Origin: Methanolobus vulcani
Lineage (GTDB): Archaea; Halobacteriota; Methanosarcinia; Methanosarcinales; Methanosarcinaceae
Assembly: GCF_900100715.1 (NCBI RefSeq)
Contig: NZ_FNCA01000003.1
Coordinates: forward strand, 62,001 to 126,000
Direction of reading: 5' to 3'
Length of the DNA stretch: 64,000 nt
The position numbers and the translations under genes are program-made. Shown here piece by piece: positions 11,523 to 50,512 of this stretch (its first letter is position 1; every line of letters starts with the position of its first letter). Under the pieces are notes generated by a model that saw nothing but the letters and a program-made list of their open reading frames with translations, was not told the DNA's origin and made no database searches.

Positions 11523-11858
11523 ATGAGTGAAAAAGAAAACTCAACAAAAAAACATGAATGGCTTAACAGGCTGGAGAAAGAAGGAAGACTGAAGGCAAAT
11601 CCGACTGAAGATCATAAGATAGGACTGCAGACGATGCAAAACCCGACACGTCGTAAGATTCTCAAAATGCTCAATGGCTGTCCACTTTGCATAGAAGAGA
11701 TAAGGAATAGCCTGAACCTCAATAGCTCTATGACCAAGTTTCATGTTGAAATGCTGGAAAACGCACTTTACGTAGACAGAGTTGTGGACAGTGAGCCGCT
11801 CATGTACCAGATATCGCCTAGAGGAGAAGCTTTTCTTGAGAATGTAGAGGAGACATAA
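11523..11858 (+). CDS. Winged-helix transcriptional regulator (ArsR-like)
   Basis: The 111-aa protein has a single winged-helix domain: NPTRRKILKMLNG leads helix 1, and SLNLNSSMTKFHVEMLENA fits helix 3, the recognition helix. A wing and a short C-terminal helix follow. Two cysteines in NGCPLC could bind metal or sense redox state. GGTGGTC lies just before the ATG. The stop codon overlaps the next start (TAATG), so the two genes are translationally coupled, and it may regulate its own AhpD-like partner. Confidence 0.85.
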   Translation: MSEKENSTKKHEWLNRLEKEGRLKANPTEDHKIGLQTMQNPTRRKILKMLNGCPLCIEEIRNSLNLNSSMTKFHVEMLENALYVDRVVDSEPLMYQISPRGEAFLENVEET

Positions 11859-12142
11859 TGATGAACGACCAGGAAAAAATTGACGAAATTGACAGGAAGA
11901 TCGGCTTCTCGGCCATGAAAAAAACCATTATGGAAGATGGAGCAATAGACAGCAGAACCAAGAAACTCCTTTTAATTGCAAGTGCTGTTGCCGTTGGTTG
12001 TGATGCATGTTTTTCAGCTAACAAAAAGCGTGCAATGGATGCAGGAATTTCGGACGAGGAAATCAATGAAGCAATACTTGTAGCTTCACTGATAAGAATG
12101 AGTTCGGGTCTTAACTATATGTGGAAGGCTATCGACGAATAA
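11858..12142 (+). CDS. AhpD/carboxymuconolactone decarboxylase-family protein
   Basis: The 94-aa protein covers one CMD domain. The redox motif CDACF (C-x2-C, about residues 49-52) with the downstream family position A-N-K-K matches AhpD-like peroxidase adaptors rather than true decarboxylases. Such proteins use the CxxC pair in thiol-disulfide or alkylhydroperoxide chemistry. Two adjacent ATG codons (11858 and 11861) can start translation, the first overlapping the upstream stop. Coupling to a cysteine-bearing regulator suggests a redox-responsive pair. This is inference. Confidence 0.87.
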   Translation: MMNDQEKIDEIDRKIGFSAMKKTIMEDGAIDSRTKKLLLIASAVAVGCDACFSANKKRAMDAGISDEEINEAILVASLIRMSSGLNYMWKAIDE

Positions 12143-12190: not shown

Positions 12191-12250
12191 TTCTCAATCA
12201 GCTTTCAACAATTCTGATCGGGAACAAGCTACTATAGAATACTGAAATTA

Positions 12251-12595
12251 GGACTCTGTAGAAATCCTGCGATTAAAACTTAAAAGCAAGCAGCAAATCA
12301 TTTCCTCTTGGTTCATGGATAACTGAAGTTATCCCGGAGGGCCTGGCAAAGCCGGCGTTTTCCCACAAAACAAAACAAAATGATTTGCATAATACTCTCA
12401 AATACTTTCGTCTCAGGACTTCTGTAGAATTATTAATATTAATGTAATGATCTTATGACTAATACTCTGCACAGCAGCATGGGAATGTGCCGCTTTCGGC
12501 GGATGGTTGCTTTGTTTTCTGATTGCCAATTGTTTTGTGGAAATAAAATATGGCAAAGACTGTATAATTCATATGATCAGGATTTCTACAGAGCC
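12251..12595. mobile_element. MITE-like element with 18/19-bp terminal inverted repeats and 7-bp target duplication
   Basis: The left end GGACTCTGTAGAAATCCTG (12251-12269) is matched in inverse orientation by CAGGATTTCTACAGAGCC (12578-12595); 16 bases are a perfect inverted match. The element is flanked by a direct repeat GAAATTA at 12244-12250 and 12596-12602, as left by transposition. It is 345 bp, too short for a transposase, and no intact gene lies inside, so it must have been moved in trans. A third partial copy of the end (AGGACT-T-CTGTAGAA, 12415-12429) sits inside in direct orientation, pointing to nesting or internal deletion. The parent IS family is not identified. Confidence 0.7.
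12293..12388. ncRNA. GC-rich foldable segment inside the MITE-like element, candidate structured RNA
   Basis: GCAAATCATTT (12293-12303) pairs perfectly with AAATGATTTGC (12378-12388), closing a 96-base segment. Inside are GGATAAC-TGAA-GTTATCC (12317-12334) and a six-pair GC hairpin (GCC-t-GGC loop AAA GCC-GGC, 12341-12356). The segment is much richer in GC than the surrounding intergenic DNA, a common sign of structured RNA in AT-rich archaea. I do not recognise a known riboswitch or RNA family. It could equally be a DNA structure used in transposition. The strand is undetermined. Confidence 0.35.
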
Positions 12596-12676
12596 GAAAT
12601 TAGCGAGTTCCAGTACTTTTTTCATAGAAAACATTATAGGCATGGAATTCATGACTAAAATATCGTATTTTCGCAC

Positions 12677-12688
12677 ATATTCGAATAT
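12677..12688. promoter_or_regulatory. Palindrome before the GbsR-like gene
   Basis: ATATTCGAATAT is a perfect 12-bp palindrome 28 bases upstream of the GbsR-like start. It may be an operator for autoregulation. Confidence 0.3.
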
Positions 12689-12716
12689 CCGGCAATTTCG
12701 ATATTGAGGCAGTTCC

Positions 12717-13346
12717 ATGGATGATAACGAAAAAAAAACAGCAAATGTAACATCTCTGCATTCGGACGATGAAAGAGGATGCAATACAAGAGAACAATGT
12801 TCTTTGCTCTATCCGAATACGAAAAGGGAAACCAGAGCTGTATCCTGGATACCTTCTGATCCGGAAAGCCCTAAGCAGGAATTTACGGAACTTATAGTAG
12901 AGAATTTAAAGTCAGAGGGTTTTGACGAGATATCTTCAAGAATTGTCGGAGTGCTCTTCATAGAACCTGAAGAAATGTCACTTGAAGAGATATCCATTGA
13001 GACCGGATACAGTTTGTCTGCTGTCAGCACAGCTATGAAGAACCTCTCACAGTTCCATATTATAAAAAGATTCAAAAAACCAGGCTCAAAAAAAGCTTTC
13101 TTTTTCCTTGATAAGAATCTTGCAGCTATCGGTGCACAGGCACTGCGAATGAAATACGACAATGTGATCCTTCCGTCTAAAAAAATATTACCGGATATCA
13201 TCGAAAAATACGAGCGTGACGGATCAGATAAAACTGCCAGTGAACTGGAAATAGTTACCCGTTATTACAGGCAGATACTGAAACTCGAATCAATTGTCGA
13301 AAATTTCCTTGACGAAATGGAAAACATCGATACCGATGAAGAGTAG
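12717..13346 (+). CDS. GbsR/MarR-like winged-helix transcriptional regulator
   Basis: The 209-aa protein has a polar N-terminal extension of about 50 residues. A winged-helix domain follows (about 55-125): IVGVLFIEPEEMSLEEISIE, then TGYSLSAVSTAMKNL as the recognition helix. A long helical C-terminal dimerisation region (ITRYYRQILKLE-like) completes it. This is the layout of the GbsR family (COG1510), whose archaeal members often sit beside osmotic or membrane-transport genes. Here the only neighbour on this strand is a nucleotide-salvage gene, so the target is unknown. GAGG stands 8 bases before the ATG. Confidence 0.82.
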   Translation: MDDNEKKTANVTSLHSDDERGCNTREQCSLLYPNTKRETRAVSWIPSDPESPKQEFTELIVENLKSEGFDEISSRIVGVLFIEPEEMSLEEISIETGYSLSAVSTAMKNLSQFHIIKRFKKPGSKKAFFFLDKNLAAIGAQALRMKYDNVILPSKKILPDIIEKYERDGSDKTASELEIVTRYYRQILKLESIVENFLDEMENIDTDEE

Positions 13347-49900: not shown

Positions 49901-50512
49901 TCAACTGAAATCCTCTAACGAAGTGGACTTTGTTTTGGGGATCAGACCTGTGAGGTCAACGGAGTTTCTGAGAATCTTGAGAAGTATACAATTTGAATGC
50001 TTAAGAATGACCTCATTTATCTTTTCAAGCTCATAGGCCGGTTCTGCAGAACTGATCTTCAGCTTGGTTATTCCAGTTGCATATTCTTTTGGACTCTTTT
50101 CCGCAGGTTTTAGAACGCAATCCAGCGAAGCAAGATAATCTGTCAGGCTTTTTGGACCGATACCCATACGTACAAATTCTTCCTTGAAAACTGGTCTTTC
50201 AACCGTCCTGGAAAGTACATAAGCTGCTACAGGAACCATGTATGCAGAGTCTACTGATCTTATGTTTTCAGCTATAAGAGAATATATGTCTTCGGTGTCG
50301 GCCTGCTCTGTTTCTGCAAGACTGTAGACTTTTGAAGGTGGAATCTCAACTTCATTCAGCTTTCTTAGATCCTTCAGAGCACGCAGATAACCTGTCATTA
50401 CAAGGCGATGTTCATCAACACCTTTGTCCTTAAGTTCTCTTGTAACACCGCTAATGGAAAGCTGTCGACCTTTCAGGATATCGTTTATGAGTAAATAGAT
50501 ATTATCGGACAT
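49901..50512 (-). CDS. Uncharacterised protein with predicted helix-turn-helix N-terminus
   Basis: The 203-aa protein begins MSDNIYLLINDILKGRQLSI. The first 70 residues are helical and resemble a winged-helix fold (ISGVTRELKDKGVDEHRLVM, then RKLNEVEIPPSKVYSL). The rest is helical without recognisable motifs. I recall comparable proteins in Methanosarcinales without an assigned function. ATG 50512 is preferred over an upstream in-frame start at 50566, although neither has a strong ribosome binding site. It may be co-transcribed with trmO and the nitrilase. Confidence 0.7.
   Translation of the reverse strand: MSDNIYLLINDILKGRQLSISGVTRELKDKGVDEHRLVMTGYLRALKDLRKLNEVEIPPSKVYSLAETEQADTEDIYSLIAENIRSVDSAYMVPVAAYVLSRTVERPVFKEEFVRMGIGPKSLTDYLASLDCVLKPAEKSPKEYATGITKLKISSAEPAYELEKINEVILKHSNCILLKILRNSVDLTGLIPKTKSTSLEDFS

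Follow-up and report, generated by a model that had tools for sequence, protein, structure and literature searches.

Positions 12252-12595 of the window, the 64,000-nucleotide stretch of Methanolobus vulcani DNA analysed here, are occupied by a genuine transposase-less jumping element, which belongs to a repeat family spread through the methanogen genus Methanolobus. The element is very probably a type II MITE, a non-coding DNA transposon with ends that match those of an IS5-family insertion sequence (IS) of about 1000 bp and mobilized in trans by the transposase of that IS. Its features are listed in the table. On the upstream side lies a carboxymuconolactone-decarboxylase-like gene (11858-12142; PF02627) and on the other a gene at 12717-13346, which encodes 209 amino acids and has no Pfam match. 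Immediately to the right of the insertion, positions 12604-12716 (about 110 bp, starting TTTTTTCATAGAAAACATTATAGGCATGG and leading up to the 12717 gene) are strongly conserved in three congeners and are probably the promoter or leader of this gene.

Table. Features of the element and its target site, in window coordinates
Feature	Position	Strand	Remarks
Non-autonomous element (MITE)	12252-12595	+	344 bp; 80% identity to genus-wide family consensus; borders from aligned copies and their target-site duplications (TSDs)
Left TSD copy, GAAATTAG	12244-12251		Identical to 12596-12603; single octamer at empty sites, GAAATTGG in G010 and GGAACTGG in G007
Right TSD copy, GAAATTAG	12596-12603		Identical to left copy; 8 bp
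Left terminal inverted repeat, GACTCTGTAGAAATCCTG	12252-12269	+	One mismatch to family end GGCTCTGTAGAAATCCTG; same end on IS5-family element
Right terminal inverted repeat, reverse complement GGCTCTGTAGAAATCCTG	12578-12595	-	Perfect match to family end; 17/17 identical to right end of IS copies L171, L173, L170, L167 and L166
Hairpin module 1, family ATCCCGAAGGGTCCGGCGAAGCCGGCGTTTTCC, this copy TATCCCGGAGGGCCTGGCAAAGCCGGCGTTTTCC	12332-12364	+	Most conserved left-core columns (50 aligned copies); stem partly decayed here
Internal end-like motif, GGACTTCTGTAGAATT	12416-12431	+	The first-pass annotation's third end; 73% over 22 nt; between the two modules
Hairpin module 2, GGAATGTGCCGCTTTCGGCGGATGGTT	12482-12508	+	Most conserved columns of family

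The first-pass annotation had described a MITE-like element of 345 bp at 12251-12595, bounded by inverted ends of 18 bp and a direct repeat of 7 bp, GAAATTA. The element is real and the inverted ends are present, with a single mismatch between them. The repeat was read as 7 bp because the left border had been set one base early; it extends over 8 bp, and the element therefore starts at 12252 and is 344 bp long. A duplication of 7 bp is rejected, 12 copies of the family agreeing on 8 bp. The earlier statement that the element carries no transposase is borne out by a check of open reading frames, the longest of which encode 65-71 amino acids and run out beyond the element.

Evidence for transposition comes from the target sites. 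Perfect 8-bp TSDs surround 11 further independent copies, every octamer being different (for example CTTAAATC at L060, AAAACTTT at L061, GATGTATG at L078 and AAATCTAT at L043), and the A+T content of the 12 octamers, pooled, is 80%. The first-pass annotation had also pointed to the orthologous sites as a check on its reading. In the window the locus runs ACT-GAAATTAG-element-GAAATTAG-CGAGTTCC, while that of G010 reads ACTGAAATTGGCAAGTTCC and that of G007 ACTGGAACTGGTTAGTTCC, with one target octamer each; the site is thus empty in these two congeners. A separate copy in G007 (L061; G007:C2:2118050-2118389), at a different site and with its own TSD, lies close to the ortholog of the gene adjoining the window element, at a distance of about 1 kb.

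Further copies, which had been anticipated in the host and its relatives, are found, in diverged form, in the host and in most of its congeners. A whole-element search of the host genome gave 12 strong matches, including the element itself (the others at 71-78% identity), together with weaker pieces, and 16 of 40 genomes were matched, all of the same genus and the host among them. With the family consensus (345 bp, from an alignment of 50 copies) matches were obtained in 31 of the 112 genomes of the taxonomic family, those outside the genus being short core pieces only. The conserved core is carried by the named records M. vulcani B1d and M. profundi Mob M; viral contigs held no match to the core motif. 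When 27 genomes were scanned for the 18-bp end, allowing at most two mismatches, G007 had 104 sites, G001 88 and the host 10; the reversed sequence, used as a control, matched nowhere in the 27. The element is short, multi-copy and devoid of a transposase gene, with inverted ends and a TSD of constant length. One long pair of inverted ends considered as a second IS (G001:274387-275834) was rejected, being an ordinary gene flanked by two MITE copies.

The first-pass annotation had held that the transposase is supplied elsewhere in the host genome, and that a full IS with the same ends and 7-bp duplications would support its reading. Such an IS was found, with duplications of 8 bp rather than 7 bp. 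A search for these ends paired at the spacing of an IS led to a 1001-bp element (G001:C1:818524-819524) encoding a transposase of 300 amino acids, which is of the IS5 family (NF033579, transpos_IS5_2, 221.6 bits with the cut-off at 140, E = 1.4e-65) and has a DDE_Tnp_1 domain (PF01609, 74.8 bits, E = 9.9e-21). Related elements of 1000-1055 bp, with left ends GGCTCTGTAGAAAACCT and right ends GGCTCTGTAGAAATCCT, are present in G020 (five copies), G017, G018, G008, G013 and G024, and the IS is intact in several congeners. Perfect 8-bp TSDs surround the copies L165, L171, L175 and L192; none was seen around the G001 copy. The ISH1 subgroup of IS5 comprises elements of 900-1150 bp with one ORF and an 8-bp TSD, for example ISTth7 (PMC6352166). 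The partner IS resembles these elements in size, in its one ORF, in its IS5-type DDE transposase and in its TSD, and its placement in the subgroup is based on size, single ORF and TSD length, not on a phylogeny. The window MITE differs from them in lacking a transposase and in having no internal sequence in common with the IS.

The likeness of MITE and IS is confined to the terminal 13-17 bp, the right end being identical over 17 bp; internally there are only 9-14-mer matches, which are at chance level. Since the two share only the terminal 17 bp, the element is assigned to type II, and its interior, as judged by sequence comparison, is not derived from the IS. We infer that the mobilizer is the transposase of the IS5-family IS or of a close relative: this DDE transposase would bind the shared inverted ends of 17-18 bp in trans, and the element would have been inserted at an AT-rich octamer that was duplicated in the process. 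In the MITE the conserved end runs on as CCTGCC, in the IS as CCTA or CCTC, and a closer, unsampled IS may therefore be the true partner. As to the supply of transposase, congeners do carry an autonomous IS whose ends are the same, but the host assembly holds only three fragment matches to its transposase and no intact copy; because only fragments are kept, the window copy appears to be stranded at present. It also counts against the pairing that some congeners, G002, G006 and G013 among them, are rich in the IS yet have few or no MITE copies. Many of the draft contigs of G013, G024, G012, G010 and G015 end inside the IS, and counts from draft assemblies therefore fall short of its true copy number. 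A shorter repeat of 132-133 bp, bounded by the left and right ends of the IS itself, occurs in other Methanolobus-like genomes (G013, C6:17407-17539, C12:8126-8257, C41:149063-149194 and C44:24288-24420; G040, C1:29172-29303 and 50125-50256) and apparently arose from the IS5 element by internal deletion, as a type I MITE.

The best conserved columns in the 50-copy alignment are the GC-rich modules TCCCGAAGGGTCCGGCGAAGCCGGCGTTTTCC and GGAATGTGCCGCCTTCGGCGGATGG rather than the ends. Both have 5-bp stems and a triloop, and in most copies one strand of the loop has the sequence GNA; in module 1 a perfect 5-bp stem with a triloop, mostly GAA, is found in 72 of 108 copies. DNA hairpins with GNA triloops are unusually stable. 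The modules may possibly aid transposition or represent an RNA or DNA structure that is tolerated by the host. A third partial copy of the end had been reported inside the element; the motif exists, but its likeness to the ends is barely above chance, the best match being 14/24 for the family consensus and 15/24 for the window, a value reached by 3.4% of shuffles. At this site 26 of 94 copies have TCTGTAGAA.

Three other explanations were weighed against that of a mobilized type II MITE. That the ends are an intergenic inverted repeat arisen by chance can be dismissed, since nothing but their short length speaks for it and the shuffles, the family copies and the empty site refute it. We searched the window for identical octamers no more than 1200 bp apart that enclose 18-bp inverted ends with at most five mismatches. 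The pair around 12252-12595, with one mismatch, is unique, while 100 dinucleotide-preserving shuffles of the window yielded 14 qualifying pairs in total, all with four or more mismatches. The conservation of the hairpin cores, the best conserved columns of the family, could be explained if the element were a structured non-coding RNA gene, conserved and dispersed through the genus, with incidental ends. Across nine old insertions at orthologous sites, the modules diverge by 8.3% (hairpin 1) and 13.0% and the spacers by 13.7, 22.2 (middle) and 14.0%, so that hairpin 1 has changed less than the middle; this slower change of modules than of spacers is mild, and suggestive only of retention because the copies were found through these same modules. 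An RNA gene is highly improbable, however, given the TSDs and empty sites that demonstrate transposition; moreover, an Rfam search of the element returned no family at a meaningful score, and the predicted pairs hardly vary, their covariation term being just 0.2, and give no compensatory signal.

Alternatively, a Y1 (RAYT-type) transposase might have moved the hairpins as independent REP/BIME-like repeats, a pair of which was captured by an IS5-type element. A second genus of the taxonomic family also has the module 2 motif, with 6-33 exact sites in every one of its seven genomes, and most remaining genera nearly lack it; in one genome of that second genus (G125), GNA-triloop hairpins form inverted pairs at the loci L238, L246, L249 and L252, with a spacing of 116-182 bp and without IS5-type ends. 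Such pairs of short GC-rich triloop hairpins are common to REP/BIME and the window family, which differs in its IS5-type inverted ends and 8-bp TSDs. Against this explanation, many seemingly solitary Methanolobus hairpins fall within a decayed sister family whose ends and geometry are the same, and the hairpin-bearing genomes G041 and G017 have no match to a Y1 transposase (PF01797), a result that speaks against a REP/RAYT system in these two genomes. An independent REP-like origin is thus decidedly unlikely, and in Methanolobus it is mostly rejected, as many of the hairpin-only matches of G041 and G017 lie in the sister family.

This sister family, of about 317 bp, was recognized from matches to module 2 in G041, G017 and G009 that have a TGC loop (loci L265-L281 in G041 and G017; L253 and L255 in G009). 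In the better preserved members the ends (with as few as one or two mismatches) and the spacing are those of the window family; no intact 8-bp duplication was found around the copies examined. Module 2 precedes module 1 in the sister family, whereas the window family has the order module 1 - module 2: sister positions 188-246 correspond to window-family positions 47-105 at 83% identity, and 42-152 to 177-292 at 71%. A modular or permuted origin of the family is possible on this comparison. It is conceivable, although we consider it rather unlikely, that two interchangeable hairpin modules with an end-like motif between them gave rise to the two orders, the swap proceeding via the internal end or via tandem or circular intermediates, and that the stable GNA-triloop hairpins are functional in mobility and not passengers.

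Type II prokaryotic MITEs have been described in Sulfolobus and other archaea (PMC10969869). Like these, the window element is short, multi-copy and flanked by TSDs, resembles an IS at its ends only, and has an AT-rich intergenic target and internal stem-loops; it differs in its IS family, ends and length (about 345 bp), in its two conserved hairpin modules and in having a sister family of swapped order. A limited literature search for insertion sequences or MITEs of Methanolobus found nothing specific, and within that search the family is previously undescribed, although as a kind of element it is ordinary. Only the conserved hairpin core, which is common to another genus, and the sister family of swapped order are unusual.

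A genus-wide MITE family of Methanolobus is thus documented, together with a probable IS5-family partner, its target size and its empty sites. The family supplies these methylotrophic methanogens with natural intergenic variation, and the MITE and IS provide a ready two-component system for tests of mobilization in trans.
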